The position numbers and the translations under genes were made by a program. The notes below the pieces were generated by a model. It saw only the letters and a program-made list of their open reading frames with translations. It ran no database searches and was not told the DNA's origin. A DNA stretch of 63,482 bases from Candidatus Saccharimonadota bacterium (GTDB taxonomy: Bacteria > Patescibacteriota > Saccharimonadia > Saccharimonadales > Saccharimonadaceae). The stretch spans positions 1 to 63,482 of the forward strand of contig JAFWDS010000017.1 of NCBI GenBank assembly GCA_017516075.1. Reading direction: 5' to 3'. Positions 1-12,879 of the stretch are shown piece after piece (within the stretch, counting starts at the first letter, position 1; the number at the start of each line of letters is the position of its first letter).

Positions 1-43
1 ATAAGCCCCTCGGGGTGAAGGTCGCGGTGGAAAGGTCATCACT

Positions 44-352
44 ATGATGAACTTTTCTTTTCTATCCCCTAATACTATTGTAAAGATTGCCCGTGGTTCT
101 GTTTCTCTGGAACAGCACTACTACTCCTATAATTATGGGAGGAGTAATCGTTACAATGTCAAGGTCACCTATCCTAACGGATATGATGCTTCCATCACTT
201 TCATCCCCGGTTGGGAAGATGAAGAGTGTTGGGATGTCGCTCTCCTGAAGGATGGCGAACTCTTGATTGAGGATGATGGGTACGACTACACTTGGTCGAA
301 CCTGACTGAAGCAGATGTGATCGAAATTTGCGATTATATCTTCTTTAAGTAG
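44..352 (+). CDS. Hypothetical acidic 102-aa protein
   Basis: I do not recognise this protein. It is rich in aromatic and acidic residues (Trp, Tyr, Asp, Glu) and has no membrane segment or known motif, so it is probably a small soluble cytoplasmic protein. A weak GGAAAGG about 10 nt upstream could act as ribosome binding site. The composition is protein-like, and the stop is followed by a strong GC hairpin at 367-387. It lies directly upstream of the structured RNA candidate, so its reading frame could be part of a longer transcript with that RNA. The start is uncertain because the window begins 43 nt upstream; two ATG codons follow one another. Confidence 0.55.
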   Translation: MMNFSFLSPNTIVKIARGSVSLEQHYYSYNYGRSNRYNVKVTYPNGYDASITFIPGWEDEECWDVALLKDGELLIEDDGYDYTWSNLTEADVIEICDYIFFK

Positions 353-366
353 TCATCCTTGGGGGA

Positions 367-387
367 GGCGGGCTCTAAGAGCCCGCC
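367..387 (+). terminator. Perfect 9-bp GC hairpin
   Basis: GGCGGGCTC pairs with GAGCCCGCC across a 3-nt loop. No U-tract follows directly, so it is either a weak terminator of the upstream small gene or the first hairpin of the structured RNA that follows. Confidence 0.5.
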
Positions 388-389
388 CG

Positions 390-877
390 GAAATATGTTT
401 TGAAGGCTCCACTCTGAGCCATATAAGTGTATCGAAGCCTGCCAAGGAAGTGGCATAGGGCGAGAGGCCGAAGCCTATCCAGGGAATGGGATAGGGATAC
501 ACATGGTCTGCTTTCCGCGGCAGTATCTCATGCGGAAACCTGCATTAGACCAGTGCAATAGGAGCACTGGTACTCGCGGAGCGAAAGAGCCAAGAAGTGT
601 TTGCCTTGGCGGACGCGCCGAGGTAAATCACTTACTTCTCGGCGGACGCGCTGAGAAGATGGCTTATAAGTAGCGAGTGCAGGTTGAGGATGAGTTTTGT
701 AGATTGTTTCCTGCCTATGGAGGGAGTGGAAAAATCTAAGCGAGCGCGATCCTGGTGAAGAGAAAAAATCCAGGAATATATCCAGAAGGGAGAAATCCCT
801 CGCGTTAGTCTGGGCGGGCGTAATGCCGCCCTAGGGGTTGGTATATCCCTCGGCAAGAATGTCGGGGGATTTTCTTA
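390..877 (+). ncRNA. Large structured noncoding RNA candidate
   Basis: No convincing reading frame covers this ~490-nt stretch, but it is full of nested complementary segments. GTGTATC (427-433) pairs with GATACAC (496-502) and encloses two hairpins, TGCCA/TGGCA (440-455) and CCTATCC/GGATAGG (474-495). GGTCT (505-509)/AGACC (547-551) encloses TTTCCGC/GCGGAAA (512-538). ACCAGTGC/GCACTGGT (549-571) follows. ACTCGC (572-577)/GCGAGT (673-678) then encloses AGCCA/TGGCT and two tandem hairpins (604-623 and 636-657) with the same GACG tetraloop. The 3' part has a GAAA-capped hairpin (787-800) and GGGCGG/CCGCCC (812-831), and ends in a terminator. It lacks RNase P P4 motifs, the SRP core and a tmRNA tRNA-like end, so I cannot assign a class. 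Confidence 0.6.
847..877 (+). terminator. Intrinsic terminator of the structured RNA
   Basis: CCCTCGGC (847-854) pairs with GTCGGGGG (861-868), allowing G-U pairs, around the loop AAGAAT. ATTTTCTT follows. This fixes the 3' end and the + strand orientation of the RNA candidate. Confidence 0.7.
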
Positions 878-6696: not shown

Positions 6697-6749
6697 GTAC
6701 TTATACTTTATTAATTTAAGAGTTTGGTGGGCAGAACAGGAGTTCTAGA

Positions 6750-6953
6750 ATGGCTGGAACTAAAGCTGGTGGCATGAAAGCCGCTGCAACCAATAAGGCT
6801 AAATACGGCAAAGAATTCTATGCTCGTATTGGTAAAAAAGGTGGCCAAAATGGTCACACTGGTGGTTTCGCTGCTAATCCTGCATTAGCACGTATTGCTG
6901 GGGCCAAAGGTGGACGTATTTCTCGTCGTGGCCCTGCAAAGAAGGCTGCTTAA
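6750..6953 (+). CDS. KGG-domain stress-type small basic protein
   Basis: This 67-aa very basic protein is rich in Gly, Ala and Lys and has KKGG, AKGG and similar KGG motifs, the signature of the GsiB/Con-10-like KGG family of hydrophilic stress proteins. In other bacteria such proteins accumulate under stress or starvation; the basic tail (RRGPAKKAA) could also bind nucleic acid. The consensus promoter at 6668-6696 predicts very high expression. A CAGGAG site precedes the ATG. The stop is followed at once by a long palindromic terminator. Confidence 0.8.
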   Translation: MAGTKAGGMKAAATNKAKYGKEFYARIGKKGGQNGHTGGFAANPALARIAGAKGGRISRRGPAKKAA

Positions 6954-8436: not shown

Positions 8437-9504
8437 ATGGCAAATGCCAAAAAAATCACAATGGATGAACTCCTAGAGAGTAATGAGGATTCATTCAAAA
8501 AAGTCATTGCAGGGGATACCGTTAAAGGTACAGTCCTATCTGTTAAAAAACACGAAATACTAATCGACCTCGGTCCACAAGGTGTTGGTTTGGTCCCGCG
8601 TCGCGAAGCATCATTTGTTCGCAATCTAAACGTTGGCGACGAAGTTACCACCTCTGTAATCGAGTCGGAAATGGACGATGGATATGTTCTGTTGTCTCTG
8701 CGCAAGGCCGTCAAAGACAAAGGTTGGGACGAAATCCAAGCCAAGTTAGATAATGGCGAGATCGTCGAAGTCACCCCATTTGACGCTAATCGTGGTGGTC
8801 TCCTCGTCGAATACGAAGGTATCCGCGGCTTTATGCCCGTTTCGCAGCTTTCTGCTGAGCATTACCCAAGAGTAGGCTCCGCTGACAAAGAAGAAATATT
8901 ACAGAGGCTGAATTCGCTAGTGGGTAAATCCATCAGGGCTCGCATCCTTGATGCCAATAAGAAAGAAAACAAGCTTATCTTCTCTGAGAAGGAAGCCATC
9001 AAAGATGGCCTCGCCGAAAGATTTGCCGAACTCAAAGTTGGCGACATTGTCAAAGGTGTAGTTACTGGCGTAGTAGACTTCGGTGTATTCGTAAATGTTG
9101 ACGGCATTGAAGGTTTAGTTCATATCTCAGAGATTTCCTGGGAGCGTGTCAATAATCCTTCGGATTACGTCAAGATTGGCGATACGATCGAAGCCAAAAT
9201 TATCGCTATCGACAAGGAGCGCCTCTCGCTCTCTATGAAACAACTCGTCGAAGATCCATGGATTTCAGAGGTAGAAGGCTTGAAGAAAGGCTCTAAAGTC
9301 GAGGGAACTATCACTAGAATCACCCCATTTGGCGCTTTCGTTCAAATTAGCCCAGCTGTCGAAGCTTTGGTCCATGTCTCCGAGCTCGGCGAAGGTTCCG
9401 ATGTCGATCCAGAGAAGATTTTTACGTTAAACGAACGCAAGGGCTTCAAAGTTCTTGATATCGACAAAGAAGGCCGCAAAATCTCACTCTCTATTTCAAA
9501 ATAA
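8437..9504 (+). CDS. rpsA: 30S ribosomal protein S1 (four S1 domains)
   Basis: This 355-aa protein is made of four OB-fold S1 domains at roughly residues 25-92, 108-177, 193-262 and 280-350. The third (VKGVVTGVVDFGVFVNVDGIEG...HISEISW) is the most canonical. S1 binds mRNA upstream of start codons on the 30S platform. The protein is shorter than the six-domain E. coli form and close to Gram-positive-type S1. GGGAAGG precedes the ATG, and the leader is heavily folded. A terminator follows at 9520-9548. The many leaderless genes nearby, which do not need S1-assisted initiation, make its role of interest. Confidence 0.92.
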   Translation: MANAKKITMDELLESNEDSFKKVIAGDTVKGTVLSVKKHEILIDLGPQGVGLVPRREASFVRNLNVGDEVTTSVIESEMDDGYVLLSLRKAVKDKGWDEIQAKLDNGEIVEVTPFDANRGGLLVEYEGIRGFMPVSQLSAEHYPRVGSADKEEILQRLNSLVGKSIRARILDANKKENKLIFSEKEAIKDGLAERFAELKVGDIVKGVVTGVVDFGVFVNVDGIEGLVHISEISWERVNNPSDYVKIGDTIEAKIIAIDKERLSLSMKQLVEDPWISEVEGLKKGSKVEGTITRITPFGAFVQISPAVEALVHVSELGEGSDVDPEKIFTLNERKGFKVLDIDKEGRKISLSISK

Positions 9505-9933: not shown

Positions 9934-12879
9934 ATGAGTGAAACTATCAACAATGGTGGAGAAAATCCAAACACAAGTCAGTGGGATAGCCTGACCAACG
10001 AAGAGCGACCCCGCGGTGCATATGTCAAAGGTCCAGATGGCAAATTAATTCCAAAAGACCAACTAGACGCTGCTATGAAAGCCTATGAACAAGCCGAATA
10101 CTACAGGAAGAATCCAGAAGCAGCCAAACACGATGCGGATCAGGCAATATTAGACGCTCGTCTTAAAGAAATGGAAGATAATCCTGATCGTTTTGAACGT
10201 TTCGAGGGCGAACATAGGAGAGGTGCAAGTAATCGCGCCAGTGAATACACTACTCTCAATGCTGGTCAGAACGGCATGTATGCTGCCGGTCCGGACGGCA
10301 CTCCATTGAACAACGCCGCCCGTAAAGAAATGGCACGCATGATGCATGACGCAGAAGACCTGCAGACTTTTGAAGAAAACCAAAAATATGCAGATTATAT
10401 AGCTCGTGAACGCGAAAAAATCGGTACGGTTTACAAAAACCGAGACGATTTCAACCATAAAGTAGTTGCCAGATTGAAGAGATTAGACCAAAGAGATACT
10501 ACTACAGCGCCGCAAAATGAGAACGTGACGAGTGACGCTAAAACACCAGACGAAAACCAGCCAGATAGCAGTAGTCAGCCAGATGATAAAAAACAACCAG
10601 ACGATGATGTAATTAGGCTCTCTGATGACGATGTCGATGTCATTCCGCCAGACCCAAATAGGTTTTTCCCTGGGAATAGAACGCCTCAAATCCCTGGGCC
10701 CACTACTATCAATAGAGCACCTCAGATTACTGGCCCGACAATAATAGACCAGGCGCCTCAACTCCCCGGTCCTACAACCGACGACAAAGCACCTCAACTT
10801 CCTGGCCCAGTTCAGGGAGAAAAGAACAAAGTAGAAATCGGCGAAATCAATATCGATGGTATAGAGCAGAAATTCGCCGAAGACAAATCCAAAGAATTGG
10901 CAGCAGTAGAAAAGGAACTGGAAGCGCTTATGCCCGAAATGGCGGAACTCTATGCTAGGAACCGTCGCCTCATTGTCGGCAATTGGAACCGCGCAAAATT
11001 CAATAAAGTCAGAGGGGAATATAGTAAACTCCTTGACAAGTGTTTGAAGCTTAGAGCCGAAAAAACCTTCGAAAAAGGTAAGCATGAAATTACCGACAAA
11101 ATCGACAAAAGAGTAGAAGAACTCCGTGCTAAAATCGAAAAAGAACTCACCGAATTCGCCGGCGGAGACCTTGAAAAAACCGAAAAATCTCAAGAAGAAA
11201 TTGATGCCAAAAAGAGCGAGTTGATTAAAGAGGCCGAGGAGGCCTTGCGCAAAGAATACGGCGAAGAAATTGATAAACAAAAAACCAAGATTAATGTCGA
11301 ATTCCTTGCTGATTTCATCGCACAAGAAACTAAACTGGAAGAAGCAACTGTCCATGCATTAGACAAGGGTAGCTTCTGTCGTAAATTCGTAAACAAAGTC
11401 ATTAACAATAAAGCTCTAAAAATTGCGCTAGTGGGTGCCGCAGCAGCAGGCTTAGCTGTCACGGGCGTAGGCTTGGTGGCTGGTGGATTATCAATCGGTT
11501 TTTCGCTCACTGCCGGTGGCTTTGCTACTGGCGCTCTAAAGGGCGGTCTTAGCGGCTTCCTTATGTCGCGCCAAAACTCCAAAAACAGCGCAGTCAGAGC
11601 ATTTGCCGATGAAAGCGAAATTGTCAGACAACTCCAAGGAATAGACGTCACCAAACAAGACGCCAGCACCGCCAACGTGGCTAAATGGCTCATGAAGCAA
11701 TATGGTAATGCTAGCGAAAAAGACAGGAAGTCCAACGTTAAGAAAACCGCTATCTCGGTTGGTTTAGGTGCTGCAATCGGCGGATTCACTAGTGGCATCA
11801 AACTTGGTAAAAATGTGACCCAAGAAGTGTCGTATTCTAAACAAACTGGTACTAACCCAATCAATACCGAATACAATATCGATGCCAACCTTTCCCAAGT
11901 CAACCAGCCACAAGGTACTGGCCTTTATAAAACCATGGAGCAAATGGGCGTGCCAAAAGAAAAATGGGATGAAGCACTTAAAATTGCTTATGACATTGAG
12001 CCAAGATACGGCTTATCGCCAGGTAGTAATGGTGTAGTTCCTGGATTTGATGGCACTATTGGCCGTCTCGCTGAGGCGTACCCAGGGCCTATCAATACTT
12101 GGCCAGATACAGCTCAAGCCTTTATTACTGAGACTGCCAAAGAATGGGCAAAACAAGGTCTCATGCCCTCAGATGTAATTAGAACTGGCGGTGAACCAAT
12201 ATATGATATCATTACAAAAACAACCACAGACTTTATTCCAAACGCTTTTATGAGTTTCCTCACCAGAGCCACAGCTTTAGCCGGTGCTGGCGCTCTTGGC
12301 GGCGCTATCGGTGGATTTGGCGGAACTGCTCGTGCTGAGCGGGTACCTACTCGTGCCGAACGGACACCTACTCGCGCTACAGGCGGGAACACCGCTCCGA
12401 ACCCGCGATCTCCAGAAGAACTATCCGGGATGGAAGGCGTAATAACGCCAGAACTACTCAGAGATTTGCTGGCATACTACGATAGCATGCCAGATGATGA
12501 TGTTACTGGTGCCCCCGAGGGTGAACCTCAGCCAGCCAATCCGGACGATACAAATAATCCAGAGACAGAACCTGCCAATCAGCCAAACAATCCCACCAAC
12601 CCAGAAGCTCAAACCAACAATTCTGAAACTGACACAGATGTCATAATCCCTGAAGATGTTCGTAGTCTTATAGGAACAGATAATATGAATCTTTTGATGA
12701 ATAAAAACGAATATAACGACGAAAGAGACAGAGAACGCTACGACAATCTCTGGAACGAACTACCAGAAGCCATCAAAAGTCAAATCGGACGCATCTTCTT
12801 CAACCAATATCGCAACTCCGAGAACGGTAGGACCTTTAGGCAGTGGTATAGTGCTCACGGAAACGCCACTAACCAATAA
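9934..12879 (+). CDS. Large membrane/coiled-coil protein with PGP repeats
   Basis: I do not recognise this 981-aa protein. The first 230 residues are charged and low in hydrophobics. At about 247-295 four tandem copies of a ~14-residue repeat occur (APQ-[IL]-[PT]-GPT type). A charged coiled coil spans ~300-480. Three Gly/Ala-rich hydrophobic segments follow (about 497-545, 605-625, 775-800). The C-terminus has an Asn/Pro/Glu-rich linker and a small helical domain. This suggests an envelope-spanning or membrane-remodelling structural protein. Its start follows the DUF5663-like stop by two nt. A host-attachment or cell-surface role is a guess only. Confidence 0.6.
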   Translation: MSETINNGGENPNTSQWDSLTNEERPRGAYVKGPDGKLIPKDQLDAAMKAYEQAEYYRKNPEAAKHDADQAILDARLKEMEDNPDRFERFEGEHRRGASNRASEYTTLNAGQNGMYAAGPDGTPLNNAARKEMARMMHDAEDLQTFEENQKYADYIAREREKIGTVYKNRDDFNHKVVARLKRLDQRDTTTAPQNENVTSDAKTPDENQPDSSSQPDDKKQPDDDVIRLSDDDVDVIPPDPNRFFPGNRTPQIPGPTTINRAPQITGPTIIDQAPQLPGPTTDDKAPQLPGPVQGEKNKVEIGEINIDGIEQKFAEDKSKELAAVEKELEALMPEMAELYARNRRLIVGNWNRAKFNKVRGEYSKLLDKCLKLRAEKTFEKGKHEITDKIDKRVEELRAKIEKELTEFAGGDLEKTEKSQEEIDAKKSELIKEAEEALRKEYGEEIDKQKTKINVEFLADFIAQETKLEEATVHALDKGSFCRKFVNKVINNKALKIALVGAAAAGLAVTGVGLVAGGLSIGFSLTAGGFATGALKGGLSGFLMSRQNSKNSAVRAFADESEIVRQLQGIDVTKQDASTANVAKWLMKQYGNASEKDRKSNVKKTAISVGLGAAIGGFTSGIKLGKNVTQEVSYSKQTGTNPINTEYNIDANLSQVNQPQGTGLYKTMEQMGVPKEKWDEALKIAYDIEPRYGLSPGSNGVVPGFDGTIGRLAEAYPGPINTWPDTAQAFITETAKEWAKQGLMPSDVIRTGGEPIYDIITKTTTDFIPNAFMSFLTRATALAGAGALGGAIGGFGGTARAERVPTRAERTPTRATGGNTAPNPRSPEELSGMEGVITPELLRDLLAYYDSMPDDDVTGAPEGEPQPANPDDTNNPETEPANQPNNPTNPEAQTNNSETDTDVIIPEDVRSLIGTDNMNLLMNKNEYNDERDRERYDNLWNELPEAIKSQIGRIFFNQYRNSENGRTFRQWYSAHGNATNQ

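Follow-up and report, generated by a model that had tools for sequence, protein, structure and literature searches.

Very few RNA classes of the size and complexity considered here are known, and the formation of RNA-only complexes by OLE, ROOL and GOLLD came as a surprise, as all three assemble into homo-oligomers (PMC12286853). In GOLLD, a conserved 3' region is joined to a variable 5' part, which can harbor tRNAs; ROOL has been described in phages and prophages, frequently close to tRNA islands; and both are accessory RNAs of unknown function (PMC12286853). In the main texts of the open-access library searched, no earlier account of non-coding RNAs from Saccharibacteria was found. The window analyzed in this study, a stretch of 63,482 nucleotides from a Candidatus Saccharimonadota bacterium, constitutes contig 9 of a genome of 0.92 Mb. 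In an initial annotation, positions 390 to 877 had been described as a large, ornate RNA that matched neither RNase P, tmRNA, 6S nor SRP RNA. This observation was confirmed and the interpretation is supported by the present analysis, which further identified three properties that had been missed: the RNA belongs, as its 3' module, to a longer predicted transcript, it has an accessory distribution, and the promoter found in its relatives is shared with other genes. The features of the unit are compiled in Table 1.

Table 1. Features of the RNA-bearing unit in the window, and the second RNA of related islands.
Feature	Position	Strand	Remarks
Structured 5' leader, 3' remnant	1-43	+	Aligned with the complete leaders of nine loci
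Small orphan ORF, 102 aa	44-352	+	Uninterrupted in all relatives; third-position excess
GC-rich hairpin, GGCGGGCUCU 367-376 / AGAGCCCGCC 378-387	361-389	+	Between ORF and RNA
Large structured non-coding RNA domain	390-877	+	z -7.0, covariation, homologues
5' hairpin GGCUC/GAGCC	405-420	+	Tandem repeat in G025, G152
Multibranch domain, GUGUAUC 427-433 / GAUACAC 496-502; inner CCUAUCC 474-480 / GGAUAGG 489-495	427-502	+	Interior variable
Conserved hairpin, near-invariant loop GCAGUAUCNCAU	513-537	+	Double changes in 6/7 pairs (13 sequences)
Core domain, CCUGCA/UGCAGG closing helix	537-685	+	62-pair core model
Core domain inner parts: ACCAGUGC/GCACUGGU hairpin, ACUCGC/GCGAGU, GAGCC/GGCUU, junction strand UAUAAG 665-670		+	
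Tandem hairpins 595-633, 635-658	595-658	+	GACG tetraloops 612-615, 645-648
Long A/U-rich helix AGAUU...AAUCU	700-738	+	
3' domain helix GAGCGCGA / CGCGU around hairpin GGGAGAAAUCCC	740-809	+	GCGCGA / UCGCGU pairs with changes on both sides
Intrinsic terminator	845-877	+	11-bp stem (845-870) + TTTCTTA; equivalents in homologues
Second RNA	L188 promoter at 8994 to about 7900; L183 from 11187	-	

The 488 nt of the domain were predicted to fold with a minimum free energy (MFE) of -205.1 kcal/mol, whereas 100 dinucleotide shuffles gave -159.3 +/- 6.6 kcal/mol (z -7.0) and none of them was as good. The MFE structure contains 21 helices where at least ten had been claimed, and the pairing density is, as annotated, far above background, on the + strand only: 150-nt windows of this strand reach down to 4.5 SD below a GC-corrected background, whereas the - strand stays near it. 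Beyond about position 900 the excess stability of the + strand falls to background. A coding function of the domain was rejected because indels of 1-2 nt among the homologues disrupt every reading frame; no internal ORF is conserved. The multibranch domain exists as annotated. The MFE structure of the single sequence misfolds positions 508-523, where the homologues favour pairing of UUCCGCG (513-519) with UGCGGAA (531-537). The tandem hairpins with identical GACG tetraloops are present in the window (GGACGC at 611-616 and 644-649), but this loop is not universal in the family, as hairpin 1 of G136 and G148 carries a UGCGCA- or GUGCAC-like loop instead. The terminator at the 3' end also holds; the terminator scan by itself was at chance level (0.8 expected), and support comes from the homologues, which end alike. 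With respect to the extent of the element, the structured domain is real but the unit does not start at position 390, as the GC-rich hairpin, the 102-aa ORF and the leader precede it as parts of one predicted transcript.

A blastn search against 60 relatives yielded one homologue with 81% identity, located at the same chromosomal place in G025 between the same small ORF and the mazG/SpoU-methylase genes. A second match, in G024, consisted of a terminator-like fragment only and was discarded. Searching with a conserved 23-mer identified four more genomes, and further copies were detected with a covariance model built on the core: in G066, G124, G136 (two), G148, G152 (two) and G163, besides one doubtful copy in G189 and one copy in a sister genus (G311). 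According to this model (E<=1e-4), the RNA occurs in 12 of 174 genomes of the genus (~7%), corresponding to fewer than 12 independent cases because G103 and G117 have one contig in common (G117:C9 = L025, 3941 bases, identical throughout). This identity might mean that both represent the same strain or that the metagenome-assembled genomes (MAGs) were cross-contaminated. Individual copies showed peculiarities: in G148 the core hairpin module is tandemly duplicated within one predicted transcript (L048:1300-1600), and in G124 the -35 region of the promoter abuts the middle of the RNA (L044), which could reflect either truncation of this copy or faulty assembly.

In the alignment of 13 sequences to the core model, 39 of the 62 base pairs show pair-keeping changes on both sides, and 96.3% of the cells are paired, versus 34-45% when the partners were slid; none of 500 shuffles matched any of the five measures. 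Since this alignment was fitted to the core structure, it is relevant that RNAalifold predicted the same core from an unfitted MAFFT alignment of nine sequences, with double changes in 45 of 110 pairs. Support for the multibranch domain is weaker, because its closing helices are well paired but mostly invariant: 99% of the cells are paired in seven homologues and two of the 14 pairs covary; a change from A-U to G-C keeps the pair. In each of the five syntenic copies the GC-rich hairpin lies behind the ORF and shows changes in its pairs, and it is also found behind the ORF in G128:C9; it is possibly a processing or attenuation site. Comparison of the homologues thus shows a fold that is, to judge from its compensatory changes, under selection.

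In its complete form the unit spans about 1.1 kb and comprises, in this order, promoter, 5' hairpin, leader, an ORF of about 102 aa, GC-rich hairpin, RNA and terminator. Base 1 of the window falls within the leader. Neither the promoter nor the regulator described below was found in the window's own genome, and because the contig starts inside the leader, both are inferred from the relatives. The leader has the layout AUAAG, hairpin CCCCUCGGGG, GGUCGCGGUGGAAAGG and a start-codon hairpin. In the consensus of nine loci, nine of 32 pairs show changes on both sides, among them pairs of the start-codon hairpin and of the core helices. A conserved structure that is able to hide the start codon is located in the leader upstream of the ORF, and the hairpin around the AUG might tune translation of the small protein.

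The ORF is open in all relatives, with 27-66% identity of the encoded proteins, and changes are in excess at the third codon position, as for example in the comparison with G025 (20/23/42 differences at the three positions). AlphaFold2 modelled the protein as an alpha-beta5-alpha domain (pLDDT 80, pTM 0.73). The sequence has no match in Pfam or PHROG and the predicted fold no confident match in the PDB. Viral fold libraries gave no confident match either; the best one, an uncharacterised Streptomyces phage protein, was weak (E 0.02, TM 0.56). Within the ORF, about 27 nt (CCTATCCTAACGGATATG-TGCTTCCAT, window 100-240) are nearly identical in five of five syntenic copies, synonymous sites included. 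The coding region may possibly contain an RNA element here.

The arrangement of the unit varies among the relatives. The same RNA follows the 102-aa ORF in G000, G025, G103, G111 and G128, an unrelated ORF of about 112 aa in G152 and G066 (L040, L045), and, in G136, an ORF of 93 aa or one for a proline-rich peptide (L047, L051). In G152:C14 (L050) and G163 (L046) the RNA is located directly behind the promoter; unlike in the window, no ORF is present, and the RNA is bounded by a promoter and a terminator of its own. Conversely, leader and ORF occur without the RNA in G026, G128:C9 and G111:C9; the copy in G064 is cut by the contig end. RNA, leader and ORF therefore represent exchangeable modules of one kind of predicted transcript, and RNA and ORF need not work together. 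It is mainly this modularity that argues for an independent function of the RNA, and the position of the RNA between its own promoter and terminator in other genomes indicates that it works as an RNA and is not merely an untranslated region (UTR). The proline-rich ORF in front of one copy in G136 (L047/L186, near 6730-6920) is small and contains repeated PPPLPPRR motifs, which resemble SH3-binding peptides.

The aligned starts of these units share a strikingly uniform promoter with an inverted repeat (TTTGTAAAA-N4-TTTTTACA), a TTTTTACCYCTGTTATT box, TTTACTTTTTGTCAA, a spacer of six bases and TATATAAT, in short an operator repeat, a CTCTGTTATT box, TTTACTTTTTGTCAA and TATAAT. Its core was detected in nine of 174 genomes of the genus, with up to three copies per genome within a few kb, whereas the reversed control gave none, and it matches across predicted transcripts with and without the RNA. 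Genes for a TrmB-type regulator (PF01978) are located near the promoters in G025, G111, G128, G163, G189, G107, G125 and G152; G124 is truncated by its contig end, and in G136 another repeat takes the operator position. A close homologue of the regulator is encoded in seven of the nine promoter-bearing genomes versus 12 of 174 overall (hypergeometric p 3e-8, uncorrected for shared ancestry). The TrmB-type protein presumably binds the inverted repeat and would switch the transcript on or off at this operator.

Other genes are located behind the same promoter. G128 harbors a Csx3-family ORF (Pfam E 9.6e-8, PADLOC 1.7e-19), to which ORFs in G111 and G125 were assigned as Csx3-like by their close similarity. 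G189 contains an operon-like pair of STIV B116-like/Csx16 ORFs (L185:10693-11007, 11340-11660) and G163 an HD-domain ORF. The standalone Csx3-like ORF lies behind the promoter at 11918 on the - strand of L188, with similar ORFs in L183 and L191. A second RNA of about 1.07 kb, conserved between G128 and G111, also follows this promoter; no long ORF was noticed in it and it has no match in Rfam. By visual inspection, the promoter islands adjoin an EF-G-like gene in five genomes (L183, L184, L185, L188, L189); on their other side, G128 and G107 carry an EF-Tu-like gene. Csx3 and B116-like proteins degrade cyclic oligoadenylate, and some are used by viruses against type III CRISPR systems. As ring-nuclease-like genes are located behind the promoter, a role of the regulon in counter-defence or in mobile elements is the most economical guess. 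For the RNA, an (anti-)defence role is likewise a guess, by association, as RNA and ring nucleases share the promoter but not always the locus. This link nevertheless suggests where a function should be sought.

All relatives whose contigs could be named belong to Candidatus Saccharibacteria, originating from sheep duodenum and jejunum and other MAGs; the RUG isolate names of some are taken here to denote rumen. A scan of genome contigs for the degenerate RNA motif resulted in 93 stretches, and those confirmed among the stretches of named source were from Candidatus Saccharibacteria only. A tRNA-Ala gene is located about 3 kb downstream of the RNA, and the window and G025 have this chromosomal neighbourhood in common. 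RNA copies of the window type adjoin the 16S rRNA gene or mazG/SpoU methylase genes. The window also contains an orphan ORF of 147 aa (1483-1926), which on visual comparison is similar to one located close to the SpoU methylase gene of G066 (L034), so that this region looks like a hot spot of small-gene exchange. The RNA family probably belongs to accessory islands of gut Saccharibacteria.

A permissive scan of positions 330-1000 against the 4227 families of Rfam 15 (E<=5) returned only sub-threshold noise (best E 1.7), there was no match to the RNA in the window at gathering thresholds, and the eleven related loci gave chance matches only (E up to 0.5-1). Assignment to RNase P, tmRNA, 6S or SRP RNA is contradicted by these scans and by the presence in ~7% of the genus, where near-universal occurrence would be expected; ARAGORN detected no tmRNA at the locus. 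Resemblances to group I/II introns and to RNase P noticed by eye were dropped, as no model matched. Neither the RNA nor the protein had DNA or protein similarity matches in phage and plasmid collections or viral contigs. In the viral contigs, none of ten stretches with the degenerate RNA motif was confirmed by the RNA model, and three exact matches to the promoter core lacked the upstream CTCTGTTATT box and were taken as chance. Mobility is thus deduced only from the patchy distribution and the varying neighbours. Taken together, it is well supported at the level of sequence comparison that the RNA is real, new to Rfam, accessory, modular and acting as an RNA. It probably represents a new family of large structured RNAs of about 490-600 nt, which in the window forms the 3' module of the predicted transcript.

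Several other explanations were considered. The RNA directly follows the ORF in five genomes with no promoter in between, as would be expected for a structured 3' UTR whose only role would be to stabilise or regulate the mRNA encoding the 102-aa protein. We regard this as unlikely, since unrelated ORFs precede the same RNA, RNA-only copies have their own promoter (L050, L046), and in the same five genomes the RNA core is better conserved (86% mean column identity) than the faster evolving protein (47-66% identity). A role as a regulatory sponge, in which repeated loops such as the GACG hairpins and UAUAAG strands titrate a translational regulator common to the leaders of the regulon, would account for the identical loops in tandem and for the finding that UAUAAG adjoins a hairpin in the leaders of various ORFs and occurs twice in the RNA (window 422-427, 665-670). 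The contexts of the motif differ, however, and loop 1 has diverged in G136 and G148; such a role appears just as doubtful as that of a 3' UTR. GGA motifs in loops of the RNA had also led us to consider a CsrA sponge.

It is very improbable that the RNA is a divergent GOLLD, ROOL, OLE or similar RNA missed by the covariance models. The size range, the accessory location and the GOLLD-like combination of a conserved 3' and a variable 5' part (PMC12286853) would fit, but Rfam provided no match even at E values of up to 5 for the window and 0.5-1 for the eleven loci. We consider it most improbable of all that the unit is a ribozyme or the remnant of a mobile intron (group I/II, HEARO-like) with an internal ORF: structured RNA does flank the ORF on both sides and the predicted transcript starts with GUGUG as in group II introns, yet no intron or ribozyme family of Rfam matches, the unit is bounded by its own promoter and terminator instead of exons, and the ORF matches neither reverse transcriptases nor endonucleases.

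In the preferred reading of an independent accessory RNA family, the RNA would form a stable folded particle that acts in trans, either by itself or together with a partner, for example the co-encoded protein. It would be among the cargoes of a regulon made up of small genes for counter-defence or from mobile elements, the ring nucleases included. A more far-reaching version would be a counter-defence regulon specific to Saccharibacteria, in which two large RNA families are effectors that are switched together with the ring nucleases by one TrmB-type regulator, the small proteins are cargo exchanged in front of a constant RNA chassis, and the RNAs possibly form RNA or RNA-protein particles; as a whole, this version is rather unlikely. 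What this family adds is a modular design, in which a constant RNA is combined with exchangeable small ORFs; its promoter is sharply defined and a candidate regulator is linked to it, and these properties make the function directly testable.

With respect to the described systems, the RNA resembles GOLLD in being large, ornate and accessory, with a conserved core and 3' domain and a 5' part that contains varying ORFs or none. It differs in that it carries an ORF where GOLLD has tRNA cargo, and in its location in Saccharibacterial islands with a TrmB-type regulator. GOLLD occurs in phages and prophages, often near tRNAs, whereas this RNA has no match among phages, plasmids or viral contigs. With ROOL it shares a length of about 500-660 nt, many hairpins, a multibranched layout and the gut or rumen habitat, but ROOL has been described from phages and prophages. 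OLE is likewise an ornate RNA of ~600 nt with protein-coding neighbours, but none of its hallmark partner proteins was noticed here. The covariance models of all three failed to match. The Csx3 and STIV B116-like/Csx16 ring nucleases, which share the promoter in sister islands, are neighbours in the regulon and not counterparts of the RNA itself. As no model matched and no viral relatives were present in the searched collections, the RNA is not assigned to GOLLD, ROOL or OLE, and it is best read as comparable in kind to GOLLD and ROOL while apparently unrelated to them by sequence.
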